From contig NC_091673.1 of assembly GCF_042453785.1 (NCBI RefSeq), positions 379,501 through 443,500 of the forward strand: a stretch of 64,000 nt of DNA. Direction: 5' to 3'. This DNA is from Malus domestica. Taxonomy: Eukaryota > Streptophyta > Magnoliopsida > Rosales > Rosaceae. This document shows, piece after piece, positions 48,401 through 57,400 of the stretch (its first letter is position 1; the number at the start of each line of letters is the position of its first letter). The notes beneath the pieces were generated by a model. It was not told where the DNA came from and made no database searches. It worked only from the letters and a program-made list of their open reading frames with translations. Both the position numbers and the translations under genes were made by a program.

Positions 48401-51400
48401 AGGAGTTGACCGCTGAAGCTTAAAGACTTGCCACATACCATCAATTGCTAGATGAACCATTTCCCTGGATAGAAAGAAGTCTAATAAAAATTTGACAGAA
48501 GTATTCTTAACTATCCATAATAAGATTGAAAACAGAATACATTTGTTATTCAGTCACAAGCAATCCTCACAGCCAAATGGTCTGATTACTTCAAAACAGG
48601 AGTTCAGGTTTCAAACAATTAAAAATGTCCTCTGGCATTACTTCCATGAGAATAACCACCCCACCCCACTTGAAGAGAGGGAGGCCACAGAAAGTTAGCT
48701 AATTTTTTATTAGGTTACTTCAAAGTACTTGTGTCATTGTTTGTAAACTATCGAAATTGACCTAACAAATTAACAGCAACAAACAGGGAAACCTACTAAG
48801 TACCAACCTGAATTTTGCATAGTCAGCCTCTAAAAAGCCCACCAAAACAGGTATTCCACGGCAAGCTATGAACATTTGCAATGTCAAGGCGCTGCACAAA
48901 AAATCCTCGATGTCAACCTCAAGCTCGATTTTCTGGTGAATAATTATGGAAGAAAACTATGACTAACTACAGAAGGGAGCACAACCTTGACTGACAAAGT
49001 TGCTGTAAGAAATAAGCTGCTTCCATACGAATTTCCCGGGAATGATTAGGAACCGCAAAGCTCATTATCACTGGGATCTGTCATATAAGTTAGCAATAAG
49101 AATTAAAGCTGCATAACTAATACCTAACACGAATGTCTAGACCATACAACTCTCAGATAGAGATAAAAGACCAAGATAGAGGGAATAAACAAACAAGATG
49201 TGTGTGCTTGTGTAATTGGAAAGTCAACTGAGCAAATTGAAGCAGACATTAGGCGTCCAAAATATTTTAGTCCAAGTGAGGCAGTTGAATATGGCATCAT
49301 TGACAAGTATATTCTTCAGTAATAAGAGCTTTTGATCATGAAGAGATAAGGCAAGATGAGCTACAGACACTTGTCCAGGGATTTTAAAGTTGAGCACAAG
49401 GTTTTCATTTTAGAGATCGAAGAGAAGTCTTTTGGCGAGAGGATTAGGGTAACAGAGAGAACGAGAGCCAGAGGATATCAGATATCTTTTGACTTGGGTT
49501 GTGCAGCATGGATCACTGATCAGTTAAAGGCGGCCATTGACACGGGCGGACTGAACTTCTTCAGAAAATACAAGGGTCACAACTATCAGTTTTGGGTTGA
49601 AGGATTTCAGAACAGAAACGGGGAGGTCCTTGTTCTTTCCAAAACTGAAAAGGATGGTTTTGTCAGAAATATCTTCGTTCCGAAAGGTTTTAAAGGCATT
49701 GGATGGAGGAATCTGGAAGAGCTGATGTCTGAGATCCTGCGAGGGGGAAAGAAGACGGGGGCTACAATGAGGAAGGTGAATCGGGTTGGAACTAAGCCTA
49801 GGAGAAATCTTTTGGGCGGCGGCTTTCAGGGCTCATACAGGGATGCAGTCATTGGAGGCAAGTCGACGTCAACTGAGGAATCCACACGGAGTGCCAGAGA
49901 GGATTTTTGGAAAGAATACACTTGGAATCAGAGGACTTGCTCTAAAGAATCTTTCAGTTGGGGAAGTGTTGTAGTCTGTGAAAGAAAGGTGGTGCATCAA
50001 TCCTGGAGGGAGGTGGAGACCTCACTTCGAAATCTTCTGGGAACGGACATCAGACTCTCGCCATTTCAATGCAACAAAGCACTGTTTGTTTGCCAGAACG
50101 AGGAGGAAGCAAAAAAAATTGCACTACTTGGAGCTATAGCCATGAAGGAGTATCCCGAGGTGGAACTGGCGGGGTGGTGGGAGAGTTTGAATTCAAATAA
50201 AAGACTGGCGGTCAGTTATGGAGGTTGGGTTGCATTGGAAGGTTTACCACCGCATCTTTGGACCAAAAAATTCTTCAAGGATATTGGTGAGGCTTGCGGA
50301 GGTCTGGCGGACATTGACCAAGCAACCACTAGTTTCGGTTTTCTGCTTGAAGCAAAGATAAAACTAAAAATCAACTTCACTGGTTTCATCCCTGAGGTAG
50401 TAGAAGTGGCTGACGGAGACCTAGTCTTCAGGGTAAGGATCCGGCAATTAACGCCAGCAAAAAGACCTATGCTTTCGGCTGAAGATCGGGGTAAATCGGA
50501 ATCTTTAGTTGGGTCTCTGAAAAAGGATCAGCAATTACAAAGGATTTCTGGAATACATCATCCGGCGACGGCTGAGCTTGGAAAGGCAGCTCACGCGACG
50601 GGGACTTGCGCTAGCTTCCGAATCGGCGTCTTCGACTGCCCAGTCACCATCGGATGTGACAGAAAGCATGATCACAACAGGTCTGTGACTGTGGGCGCGA
50701 GTTACGAGGAGCATGCAAACCCACTCTATGACCTTACTTTTCCTGAAAGTGAGCGTGGGACGCCATCTCAAGAACAGGACGGGACAGCTACGGCGAGTCA
50801 ATCAATAGAAGCGGCGGTAAATGAGTTTTTAATGATTTCGAATTTGGAAGGAAGCTCCAGTATCATGATTTCTCCGGGTAAAAGCAAAAGCTTGGAATTA
50901 GATGGGAAAGAGGATGGCGGTGGCTCTAGTATAGAGGAGGCACATATTTCAACAGGAGGGGAGTATTTTAATGGAACAAGAGTGGAGATATTCACTAGAA
51001 ATAGTGTAGATCCATGTGACGGGAGCAGGCCCAATAAAAACAACTTTTTTCCAATTAAACTTGATGGAGTGGCGGGCCTTGATCCACAAAGCCCAAATAT
51101 TGGAGATAACATTGTGGTGAGCGGGCCTATGGCTGCCAAACATTTATTTACAATTATAAATGGTAATTCGGTGGGCTTCGACCTACATTGGAATGGGTCT
51201 GGCGGTGGCCCAATCACCCTAACTACTCACGGGCTGAGATCTCATCATCAATCCGAAATGGTCTTTCTGTGTAAGTCTTTAACGTTTTCGAACCCGCTTG
51301 CGGATCTAAGGCTGCCAACTATAAGGAATACTGCGCCACAGTATATGGCTTTGGGCGATCCCCAGCAACTTCGGGCCATGGAGTTCTACGCAGCAGGCGC

Positions 51401-54400
51401 TCCAATCAGACCTTCCTGGAGCATAAGTTCGAGTTTCTTTGGGAGATTTGGACAACACGACAGGGGCGGAAAGCGGCTAAAGCTTCTTCTACCACATGAT
51501 TTTGGCTCTTGTCAGAATCATCTAGAATGGCCTAGTCCGATGGAAGCCTTGTCTTCTAACCTCACATTCAACGATTCAGCTAGTGAATCAGAGGAAGACC
51601 TGGAGTGTGAGGCCGATGATAACATTGTCCGATCACCGGGCGGGTCGAGTGAGAAGAATTCAGCAAATCAATGGTGGAGAAGGTTGGAGGATTTTGGCAT
51701 GGATTCGGTTCAATTGTTAGACAGTGACGACGAAGATTTCTTCGCTCAATCTTCTGTCGCTGATGGGGAGGAGGATGCTTACTCTCAAGAGGAAAAAGAA
51801 AGATCTGACGATTTTGAATTATCCTGTGAGGACCTCCACAACCTCTTCATTGATTCAAATTTGGAAGCAGTGACAAAGTTGGAGGAGGCAACCAATCACG
51901 AGGAGCAGTCTGTTACTGAGGAAATAGGAAAAAACAAGAAATTATTAAAGTACAGTAGAAGGAAAAAATTGGCAGGAGCATCAGCCAATCGTGAGGCCAA
52001 ACATCTAAGTTCCAAATTTTTGTCTAAAATGAAGGTTTCCTTGTTTCCGTTGAAAAGGTCTCTATTCCAAGAAACGAAGAATGGGAAAGTCAGAAGAGGC
52101 AAAGGAGAGGGTGGTTGTAAGGGAGAAAACAAACTTCACAGGGGCACTAGTAGTGTTAATGAAGATAATTAGTTGGAATGTTAGAGGATTGGGAAGTACA
52201 CGGAAGAGGCTAACATTGAAAAAACAATTCCAACGGTTACAGCTGGACATCATCATACTACAAGAAACTAAGAAATCAGTGATTGATAGAAGTCTTGTGG
52301 CTAGCGTGTGGGGAAGCAGATATAAAGAGTGGATTTTTGTCCCTGCTCAAGGAAGCTCAGGGGGCATAGCTGTAATTTGGAACACAAAACACATTTCTGT
52401 AACCGAATCTTTGGTCGGTGTTTTCTCTGCATCAATAAAAATTAAGGCTCCCAATGGGATGGAGTGGTGGCTATCCGGAGTCTATGGTCCATGTAAAAAT
52501 AGAGAGCGGAGGGAGTTTTGGGAAGAATTGGCGGGACTTTATGGTATGTGTGGAACAAGATGGTGTATAGGAGGAGATTTTAACGTGGTTAGATTTATAA
52601 ATGAGAAATCAAACGGGGGGAGGCTAACCAAAAGCATGAGGAATTTTAATGATTTCATTCGAGAGACAGAACTCAAGGATTTGGATCTACTCAATGCACA
52701 GTTCACTTGGTCAAATCTCAGAGAAGAACCTGTGTGTCGAAGATTAGACAGATTTTTATGCTCTACAGGTTGCGAAGATATCTTTCCTGAGGCTAGACAA
52801 ACGGCATTGGCTGGGATATTTTGAAGGAAGATATAATGAAGATCATGGAGGAATTCTTTGAGAAAGGGATAATAAATGCAGTGACGAACGAAACATTCAT
52901 TTGCCTAATCCCAAAGAAGTCAGATTCTTTGAAGGTGACGGACTATAGGCCCATCAGCTTAGTAACTGGATTGTATAAAATCATAGCGAAAACACTGGCT
53001 TCAAGATTGAAGGAGGTTTTGGTTACCACTGTCTCCCCACATCAGGGGGCGTTTGTTAAGGATCGACAAATTTTGGATGCAGTCCTCATTGCAAATGAAG
53101 TGGTAGAAGAGATAAGGCAGAAAAAAGAGAAGGGATTGGTGCTCAAGATCGACTTTGAAAAAGCGTATGATCATGTTGAATGGAGATTTCTGGAAGAAGT
53201 ACTACAAAGAAAAGGTTTTGGCAATAGATGGAGGAAATGGATGCAAGGATGTTTATGCTCTGCAAATTTTTCTGTTTTGATCAATGGGAGGCCTAGGGGA
53301 AAATTTCAAGCTTCAAGAGGACTAAGACAAGGTGACCCACTATCACCCTTTCTCTTCACCTTAGTAGTCGATGTTTTGAGCAGGTTAATGGAGAAGGCTC
53401 AAGAAAATGATCTCATCAAAGGTTTGTGTATCGGGCAAGAAAAGGTGGAGATCTCTCATCTTCAATTTGCAGACGACACCATATTCTTTTTGACGGAAGA
53501 TGAGGAAGTTTGGAACAACCTATTACAAGTGCTCAACTTATTCTGTTCAGTCTCAGGACTGAAAATCAACAAAGCGAAGTGCTTTTTGGCAGGAATAAAT
53601 TCAGAAAGTGAGAAATTAAATAGGATGGCAGATTCTTGGGGTTGCGAGGTAGGATGTTGGCCTATAAAGTATCTGGGATTTCACCTTGGGGGAAGGCCAA
53701 AAGCTATAAGGTTTTGGGATCCAGTGGTAGAAACAATGGAAAGAAGACTTCAAAGTTGGAAGAAGGCTTTCCTATCCAGAGGAGGTAGATTAACTCTAAT
53801 TCAATCAGTCTTGGGAAGCTTGCCGATTTACTATATGTCATTGTTCAAAATTCCCTGTGGGGTAAGAAGACGTCTAGAAAAATTAATGAAAGGGTTTCTC
53901 TGGGAAGGCGTGGAGGAAGGTAAGAAAACCCATTGGGTCAAATGGGAGTTAGTTACTAAAAACAAGGAGGAAGGAGGTCTAGGGGTGGGGAATTTGAGGA
54001 ATCAGAACGAAGCACTATTGGCTAAGTGGTTGTGGAGATTCCCAAGGGAGTCTCATTCCTTATGGCACAAGGTGATAAAAAACAAGTATGGGCTACAAGT
54101 TAATGGATGGAATGTACTTCCTCCAAGGAGGGTTTCAAGTCGTAGCCCATGGAAAGACATTTCGAGTGGTGCTCATCAGTTTCTTAGTTGTTGCAAGTTT
54201 GAGGTGGGCAATGGAGAGAGGGTTAGGTTTTGGGAGGATGGGTGGTTAGTAGGGGGACCGCTGAAGGAGCAATTCCCCAGATTATTCTTATTATCGAGGA
54301 AGCATAATCATAACATATCTAGCTTTGTGGAAGCTTTGTCAAGTTCCTTGAGTTGGAACTTTGATTTTAGGAGAAATCTGAATGAGATGGAGATAGAAGA

Positions 54401-57400
54401 GGCGGCCAGCTTATTACAGAAAGTGGAAGTGGTTCGCTTGTCTCCATCAAAAATGGATAACAGAAGGTGGAACCTAGAAACTTCAGGTTTGTTCACATGC
54501 AAATCCTATCGGTCATTACTGAGCAACAATGGGATTGTGCACTATTATCCACCCTACTCTCAGATTTGGAAATCAAAAGTTCCTCCGAAGGTTAAAATAC
54601 TTGTATGGCTTGTGGCCAATGGGAGTCTCAACACTTGCGACAAAATTCAAAGGAGAAACCCTATGATGTGTTTATCCCCACATTGGTGTAGTTTATGTAA
54701 AGCTAAGGAGGAGAGTGTAAATCACATCTTTCTTCATTGCTCCTACTCGATACAACTGTGGTGGAAACTGTTTCAGGAGGTTAAAGTAAGTTGGGTCATT
54801 CCTAAAGGGTGTTTTGAGCTACTAAGCACCAATTTCAAGGCACTTGGAAAAGGGAAAAAATCCAAAGCTTTGTGGGGTTGCCTGGTATCGGCAATTTTCT
54901 GGAATATATGGCTGGAACGCAACAAAAGGATTTTTGAAGACTATACTGGAGTGGGGGCAGAAGTACTTTGGGGGAGAGTTAAATATTGGGCATCTTTTTG
55001 GGCTTCGGTTACTAAAGAGTTTAATAATTGCTCTCTATCTCAAATACTGTGGGATTTGTTAGCAGCAGTTAAGTGAGCTTGGTCTAGAATTGGCTACTGT
55101 AGCCAATTCCTATTAGGATTTTCCTTTCTAATTTGTTGGTGGACTTCTTATCCACTTCTGTGTTTTTCTCTATTCTTTAATAAAATTGTTTCTTCTCAAA
55201 AAAAAAAAGATGTGTGTGCTTGTAAAGAAAACTGATTCACTTTTCAGTGCTGCCAATATCAGTCCTACTGCCATGGTCAGAGACAAGCAAGATGCAACTG
55301 CAGAATAACAAAACATTAAAACTCACCAAACCCACGAGACAAGCATTTTCTTGGAAATCAGTATTATCTTTGATTATCTGATTTATAATTTGAAGCACAG
55401 AACATATAACCTGCAAAAGTGGGAAACAACAATCACATACAGCTATCATAAAGCTAATTGAAAAGTGGGCATCCATCTTTTGTATTTCTCATTAACATGA
55501 CCAGAGAGGTAAAAAAAGGATCCACATACTCGAGTTTTAGGTACTTCAAGCAATTCCACTAGAGGGATCAAACCATGCTGGGTAACAAAAACAATTTTCT
55601 GCTCTGGGCGCTGATGGAAGATAGCAATGAGTTTCTGACAGGCAGAGACAATAACATCTTCTGTTTCATCTGGTCTCAATGACCCAACCAACCGGCTGAA
55701 CTCAACAGCCTACCAAACAAGAAATAGCAGAAATTATTTCCACGTCAACAAAAGGCAGACAAATACATATAGGATTGGTGTGATGCTTCTGCTTTACAAT
55801 TTGTGCAGCAGATACTTTACGGCACAACACTGCACCAATGTCACTCATTTGAGAGTGATAATAAAGTTACTGTATCTTTCATACATTCCTGTTTCTTATC
55901 CCAAAAAAAATGAGACTCAAAACATCTGCAATTGTTAACCTCAGAGGTGCAGATTTATAGTCATAAATTCTTCAGAGACTTGTAGATAGTTAGAATTTAA
56001 TGCACTCCATATAAGAAAAAGGAAAATTATCACAGATCCTTAAATCTGCGGGAGAAAACCACAAAAGAAATGTGAATACCTGTAGGGGAAATAGGTTTTC
56101 TCCAGGCATCTTTTCGTCGAAAACCTAATACACAGAAACATATATAGTAAAAGGTGTCAGAGATGATGAGTCAACAAATTAAAAAAAGGACTCAACATTT
56201 GAAACATACCAAACCACCAATATCAATCACATCATCTTTGAGAACACCCATCATAAGCTGTAACAGGTTGCCACCACTGCCATTAGCCTGACCCATTTCA
56301 CTCTCCATTTGTTTTTGAGCAATTGTAGCTCTCAACTTTGTAGCCAGGTCGCCTTTCCCAGCATCATTCCCAGGTGTATTCCCTTGGTTTGAATGTGACA
56401 TAGATGCAGATGTCGAAGCCTCAGTTGCCCTATCCTCTGGATGCTTATCCAATGGATGAAACAGATCATCCAAGGAAGCATCTCCCGGAGTATCACTAAA
56501 TTTACTGAGTTCATTACCTCCCAAAGAAACTGGCATCTTGGCAGCCTTCAAAATGACAGACACAAATCTAGGATTAAGAGATATGAGAGATTGAAGGTAA
56601 AGTAGGAACAATCTCTACACAGGACTTCAAAATGTGACAACAATAAATATTACCCAAAATAGATACCACCAAACCAACACCACGCATAATATGACCAGCA
56701 AGTAGTTTGACAAAAATCAACATCAACTACTGCAATCTCACCTTTTGAAAACTACTATCCTGATTTCTTGTTCCGAAACCGAATGCTCTATAACCAACAC
56801 CTTTTCCTCCTTGTTTGGCACTTATATTTTTAGTCATTAATTCAGGAGATCTGACCTCACCATTCACCAGCACTGCATCATGGTTGCTAGTATGTGGTGG
56901 CTCGTCAAGCTCAGTTGGCTCAGAGGCAGCCAATTCCTTAAAAGATATTATGCCAGAACCATTTTGCAAAGATGACTTTTCATGGATAGCTAATGTGGGA
57001 ACTTGATCTGTCAGATCATCTTCTAAATTATCCGTCTTCTCCTCAACAGATTTTACATCTGAAGCAGTGTCATCATCAGATTTTCCCATATCAGAAACCT
57101 CAGTTGATAATAATTCTTTCCTAGAGTCCTGAAGTTCAAAAAGATCCAAGTCACTGGTAATACAAGAAAACTCAAAAGCTTAAATTAAAGAACTCTACCG
57201 AAAAATTAAGCCTGTAGTTTGTGAAAAGGCAAGGACTCTCACTGCTTTAATGGTCGAAGCAGCTGCTTCAACTTTCTCTGCAGAAGGACGTCCACTAGAG
57301 CCCTGATTATCTCCATTGGAAATTTCTGCATCTATTGAAGCATCTTTTCTGCAAAACAACTGGGTTTTTTTAAAATGAATTACCAAACAACAATCCGAAT

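Follow-up and report, generated by a model that had tools for sequence, protein, structure and literature searches.

An apple LINE insertion whose leader joins exon ends of two unrelated host genes, and related copies with differing 5' sequences

A LINE inserted in the genome of apple (Malus domestica) begins with the ends of exons from two different host loci. The window, the whole stretch of 64,000 nt that was analysed (C13:379501-443500 of a 651-Mb assembly with 19 contigs), contains, in this order, a target site duplication (TSD), the bases GTA, the end of a Clp-protease gene exon (piece A), the end of an exon from an NB-LRR locus (piece B), and the LINE. A single TSD pair encloses the whole insertion (Table 1), so that foreign RNA pieces and LINE lie together as in a chimeric LINE insertion. 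That this leader derives from host RNA and arrived in the same insertion is close to certain. As to how it was assembled, the sequences incline us towards a chimeric RNA that would have pre-dated reverse transcription and would have been made mainly by splicing, in cis or in trans. Our best reading of the lineage as a whole is that almost leaderless LINEs have repeatedly acquired leaders from host RNA, probably largely by splicing.

Table 1. Positions of the parts of the insertion within the window
Feature	Position	Strand	Remarks
5' TSD, 17 bp	49195..49211	+	exact repeat
GTA, 3 bases	49212..49214	+	accounted for by neither target nor Clp donor
Piece A, last 93 nt of Clp-protease gene exon	49215..49307	+	0/93 differences; Pfam CLP_protease
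Piece B, last 38 nt of 96-nt exon, C11 array	49308..49345	+	1/38 differs from L023
LINE body and short poly(A)	49346..55206	+	poly(A) end ambiguous with first TSD bases
ORF1, 938 aa	49356..52172	+	DUF4283
ORF2, endonuclease part	52081..52824	+	Exo_endo_phos
Internal-deletion join	52805..52811	+	ORF2 frame change
ORF2, reverse-transcriptase part	52821..55076	+	RVT_1, zf-RVT
3' TSD, 17 bp	55207..55223	+

The TSD sequence, AAGATGTGTGTGCTTGT, occurs only at its two listed places when the whole window is searched on both strands. A first-pass annotation had reported this duplication, with an open Clp-type segment directly after it, and both are confirmed: the repeat is exact, and the segment matches Pfam CLP_protease (E 1.8e-6). 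The annotation had then continued from the Clp segment into the LINE leader and ORF1; ORF1 does follow, but most of the stretch in between comes from a second host locus. Plant L1-type LINEs carry an ORF1 with DUF4283, endonuclease, reverse transcriptase and zf-RVT domains, a poly(A) and a TSD. The window element has ORF1 and an ORF2 with endonuclease, reverse transcriptase and zf-RVT domains, together with a TSD and a 3' poly(A), and is putatively of the plant L1 type. It starts at about 49346, 10 nt 5' of the ORF1 ATG, and its boundary with piece B could be shifted by up to 2 nt (AG). Relative to the sister copy L036, 743 bp are absent at the internal join, and since this deletion breaks ORF2, the window LINE is a broken copy. 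Splicing was considered as the origin of the ORF2 gap and rejected, the join showing short microhomology and no GT..AG. A comparison of the reverse transcriptase with viral contigs gave eight pattern matches, none of them a relative. The gene around the insertion lies on the minus strand and has, by our reading, kinase motifs in its frames; presumably it is MAP3K-epsilon, as the first-pass annotation named it.

All exon limits were read from the sequence itself (GT..AG), without annotation. Translated in frame, 49212-49319 matches CLP_protease with 28.4 bits (cut-off 20.2) over profile positions 148-178 of 182, and against the PDB it matches Clp proteolytic subunits, best 7eko_K (E 1e-5), which bears out the proposed ClpR/ClpP relationship. 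A genome search with 49195-49330 gave three matches, namely, the window, C6, and C4, and no other LINE copy was found in it to carry the Clp piece. The C6 match (C6:6402212-6402304) is identical at 93/93 bases, from 49215 onward, while that on C4 (C4:6099448-6099537), in a paralogue of the C6 gene, is 99% identical over 90 bases. We assume that the donor gene resembles Arabidopsis ClpR4. Within the C6 gene, the match begins 21 nt into an exon and ends at the exon end, GACAAG/gtatttc (the slash marks the splice donor), beyond which come an 81-nt intron and then the apparent last coding exon. The Clp piece apparently comes from the penultimate exon, not from a first exon with a long following intron as in the human type of chimera. 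The Clp segment had been drawn more widely beforehand; the match stands, but it covers only 49215-49307, and neither GTA nor 49308-49345 is Clp. The residues YILQ and the two stops after them are piece B, because 49308-49345 derives from a different host locus. The window does not bear out the description of the fragment as spliced, since piece A lies within a single exon and thus does not itself demonstrate intron removal; a removed intron is seen in another copy, L012.

Piece B was traced with a genome search using 49308-49900. This yielded at least 27 matches, a minimum where repeats are concerned. They comprise the window, 18 LINE copies (L005-L022), L030 as a weak match, and, on C11 at 2.51-2.61 Mb, seven places where just the first 42-45 bases of the query match. 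None of the other LINE copies in this search carried the NB-LRR piece. The exon end on C11 is identical to 49308-49345 at 37/38 positions in L023 and at 36/38 in L026 and L029. It is preceded directly by ctctattcAG within the donor and ends at the splice donor GAAGAG/gtaatg. Upstream of this exon stands a large LRR open frame, with matches to disease-resistance LRRs and a winged helix, so the exon probably belongs to the 3'UTR of NB-LRR genes. The seven C11 places (L023-L029, C11:2512222-2605825) form an array of copies of the piece B exon beside an NB-LRR open frame, and some of these copies are ~32 kb apart and alike in the stretch compared.

The two pieces thus come from unrelated donor loci, and both are sense to the LINE by our reading. 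As in the human type of chimera, the donor exon end falls at the splice donor, exactly for piece A and within 2 nt for piece B. Template switching of the U6/L1 or MINE type starts copying the donor RNA at its natural 3' end, whereas both pieces here stop at the ends of internal exons and not where a mature mRNA would end. The initial proposal had been that a template switch, made when cDNA synthesis reached its end, attached one Clp mRNA to the 5' side of a plant LINE. A host Clp piece was indeed inserted with the LINE, but there are two donor loci rather than one, and a spliced chimeric RNA fits no less well than a simple switch, since the Clp piece ends at a splice donor and the next piece follows an AG in its donor.

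We then compared the 5' ends of sister copies. In nine near and middle relatives, the common sequence starts just 1-17 nt 5' of the ORF1 start, unlike in known plant L1-type LINEs, and is copy-specific further upstream. We looked for a TSD in 17 copies (the window, L005-L010, L012-L014, L016-L019, L021, L022, and L030), leaving out L011, L015, and L020, which match only from within ORF1. It was found in eight, and all eight have extra, differing sequence of 20-763 nt between TSD and LINE, although the copies whose TSD can be found may not be representative. The extra sequence measures 134 nt in the window (TSD of 17 bp), 92 in L005 (16), 20 in L006 (16), 45 in L007 (14), 225 in L012 (19), 263 in L013 (20), 763 in L016 (16), and 418 in L019 (16); the window length follows from the coordinates, and those of L016 and L019 were measured to ATGCATCG, the apparent start of their group's common sequence. 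Among the copies without a TSD, none was found for L010 and L021 with their LINE 3' ends in hand; L008 and L009 have a 3' piece without LINE match, the match of L014 breaks off, the 3' piece of L018 and L022 has no poly(A), and the poly(A) of L017 and L030 is not recognisably a LINE end. Paired with L081, L021 shows a 14-nt TSD candidate at -2451, left uncounted, which would imply a leader of >2 kb.

Two of these copies, L016 and L019, are from a group that has diverged further (72% over the match). By our reading, ORF1 in the group of L016, L019, and L021 apparently starts ~35 codons earlier, at ATGCATCGAAAGG, and sequence directly before that ATG is again copy-specific. The 763-nt leader of L016 (L016:2012-2774, minus strand) reads as seemingly unspliced intron-exon sequence, and the 418-nt leader of L019 (L019:977-1394) includes an antisense protein-kinase C-terminus (PF00069 Pkinase, E 1.9e-5, under the cut-off).

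Leaders of six copies (the window, L005, L008, L010, L012, and L013) were searched for donors, and each matched elsewhere in the genome; five of them, all except L008, have two or more unrelated donors each. Piece A of L012 spans two successive exons of a single gene, joined exactly across the missing intron; its piece B, of 56 nt, comes from intronic sequence of an IBR-domain gene, and about 10 and 26 nt have no donor. Piece A of L005 is the exon end GGACAG/gtgagg of a cysteine-synthase-like gene (PALP, E 1.5e-4 over 36 residues, under the cut-off), and its piece B is 36 nt from a C3 gene; on the LINE side, an AG precedes ATAAGG, and LINE starts vary between copies. L013 joins a coding exon (97-98%; Ints3-like in its donor frame, E 3.9e-5, not reaching the Pfam cut-off) to an exon ending at GAGCAG/gtaata, with 7 nt at the inner join that have no explanation. 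Piece B of L013 also stands between two copies of ATTAAGGA (L013:1454-1502), the second at the LINE start; these repeats may reflect a switch back to the LINE RNA or a small duplication. L010 has exon ends from two genes, TACAA/gtacgt (p1) and GAAGTG/gttagt (p2); as L010 has no TSD, joint arrival of its pieces with the LINE is putative. Its LINE-proximal 54 nt matched only themselves in the genome search and do not occur in the ~2.3 kb that follow the p2 donor exon. L008, also without a TSD and in no junction count, has a stretch (q79-170, 92 nt) identical at 100% to C5:36989111-36989202, and its q1-48 is a repeat.

Ten pieces for which donor and context were read could be scored at their junctions: A and B of the window, L005, L012, and L013, and p1 and p2 of L010. 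By coding frame or splice-site orientation, as we read them, all ten are sense to the LINE. In the donor, GT directly follows 6/10 pieces (window A and B, L005 A, L010 p1 and p2, and L013 B; L005 B, L012 A, L012 B, and L013 A do not end at GT), with a binomial tail of 8.6e-6 against a background GT frequency of 0.061 in the ten donor loci. AG precedes four of the six pieces that have a host piece upstream (1.9e-4), and both GT and AG are present at 3/6 host-host joins, those of the window, L005, and L010 p1/p2 (1.0e-6). The upstream host piece for L010 p1 is an 89% piece (C6:27429064) that was kept out of the ten because its identity and orientation are ambiguous; with it, the GT count is 6/11 (1.8e-5). 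Leaving out L010 altogether gives 4/8 for GT (7.8e-4), 2/4 for AG (0.02), and 2/4 for both (8e-5). L013 B may also follow an AG, and was scored as a miss since its start is ambiguous. These figures assume independent breakpoints, which we placed after seeing the sequences, and the counts are few. All four of these AGs fall within the donor exon, at 13, 14, 20, and 58 nt beyond what looks like its genuine acceptor. At the window and L005 joins, AG (2 nt) is common to both sides; at the L010 p1/p2 join, the adjoining base differs, and 3/4 preceding bases match (ACA), an imperfect homology.

Because pieces end at splice donors and the right-hand piece follows an AG, splicing joins appear to be the better-supported mechanism, with serial template switching as a serious rival. 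Splicing is also favored by the precise removal of an intron in L012 A and by the presence of extra, differing 5' sequence in every copy with a resolved TSD. A LINE copy would be transcribed from upstream host sequence, and the splice donor of a host exon would be joined to an AG in the existing leader of the copy or at the LINE start; the spliced product would be reverse transcribed and then inserted. The position of the AGs, 13-58 nt past the apparent acceptor and within the donor exon, fits an acceptor in the intron-free leader of an earlier copy, so that layers may have been added generation by generation, each placing a new host exon onto the remnant of an older leader. For the window, this would make piece B the older layer and piece A the later addition. 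It is conceivable, though we put this forward with some reserve, that the lineage has no leader of its own and lives by such a relay, the splice donor of a host exon being joined in every generation to an AG at the front. That each copy would thereby layer a fresh host exon on the remnants, shuffling unrelated host exons, is an equally tentative proposal.

Several observations speak against splicing. L012, L013, and L005 B have non-splice joins, L012 B is intronic, L019 contains antisense kinase sequence, and no source LINE was found in 32 donor-side loci (mostly 1.5 kb per side, with 15 kb around the Clp gene and 30 kb of the C11 array). All of these fit better with serial template switching, in which the acceptors would often be free 5' exons (splicing intermediates) or nuclear RNA fragments, a process that could well have contributed but that we doubt as the main explanation. 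The five copies with two or more unrelated donors are likewise in its favor, as are the two of four AG cases (window and L005) that are also explained by the AG on both sides. Double switches have been described for LINEs (PMC2104539). Template switching nevertheless requires that free 5' exons be favored acceptors and, taken alone, does not account for the AG that precedes the right-hand piece in the L010 joins. A mixture of splicing and template switching is possible. If splicing acted in cis, the lack of a LINE in the donor-side loci implies that the cis sources have disappeared, lie at a greater distance, or are missing from this haplotype.

Splicing could alternatively have acted in trans, with host 5' exons spliced onto LINE transcripts. 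This is a form of the splicing model, within whose share of probability it falls, and by itself we consider it rather unlikely. It would account for splice-donor ends in the absence of a LINE from the donor loci examined, and the same argument has been made for 15/17 human loci (PMC13174262). However, the window would require two successive trans-splices, the AGs used are those within exons and not the apparent true acceptors, and the Clp intron is very short compared with the long introns of the human cases; its 81 nt also count against splicing in general.

Very improbable, in our estimate, is DNA filler, that is, short patches templated by genomic DNA and added during repair of the LINE 5' junction. 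The patches measure a few tens to about 200 nt and come from scattered loci, and L012, L016, and L019 contain intronic, apparently unspliced, or antisense pieces, all of which would suit such an origin; against it are the removed intron in L012, the splice-donor ends, and the uniformly sense orientation of the ten mapped pieces. As the sole cause, filler is rejected by the removed intron, while single pieces may still be filler. We give practically no credence to a fixed, inherited 5' region captured once from the Clp gene, the alternative offered by the first-pass annotation, for which nothing was found in favor and which is contradicted within this assembly, as far as our searches reach: the Clp piece has no matches beyond the window itself, the gene on C6, and the paralogue on C4, with 100% identity to the donor, neither it nor the NB-LRR piece occurs in another LINE copy searched, and the sister copies that were read carry other leaders.

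A lineage with host-derived leaders would bear on the transcription of plant LINEs that have no obvious leader. If every copy with a resolvable border carries a different host leader, frequently ending at splice sites, LINE mobility would be tied to host splicing, leaving a natural record of chimeric RNAs and providing a steady route by which exons of unrelated genes are joined.

The closest known case is that of human L1 insertions with mRNA or lncRNA at their 5' ends, for which Law and Burns (2026) proposed cis- or trans-splicing (PMC13174262). They comprise 17 insertions in the human reference, mostly with the start of a transcript, before long introns; 6/17 end precisely at splice donors, and 15/17 donor loci have no intronic LINE (PMC13174262). 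The apple insertion is like them in having a sense host exon 5' of a near full-length LINE within one TSD pair, and it differs in its two donor loci per insertion and in its use of an internal exon before an 81-nt intron; a further difference is that here all eight copies with a resolved TSD have extra 5' sequence. The MINE and tripartite LINE chimeras of Magnaporthe, for which a double template switch was proposed, likewise fuse several RNAs in one LINE-made insertion with a TSD; such double switching with TSDs has been described for a fungus and for mouse (PMC2104539). They combine recurrent RNAs (WEIRD and Mg-SINE) with 5'-truncated LINEs, with one tripartite fungal case (PMC2104539), whereas the apple copies have differing host-gene pieces, often cut at splice sites, before a retained ORF1 start. 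Human SpIREs are also retrotransposed from spliced LINE RNA, but they are spliced within L1 (PMC5860796), while here host exons precede ORF1. A search of open-licence PMC papers with a few wordings found no plant report of such leaders. Chimeric LINE insertions are therefore known in kind, and it is the multi-gene, many-copy form in a plant that looks new.
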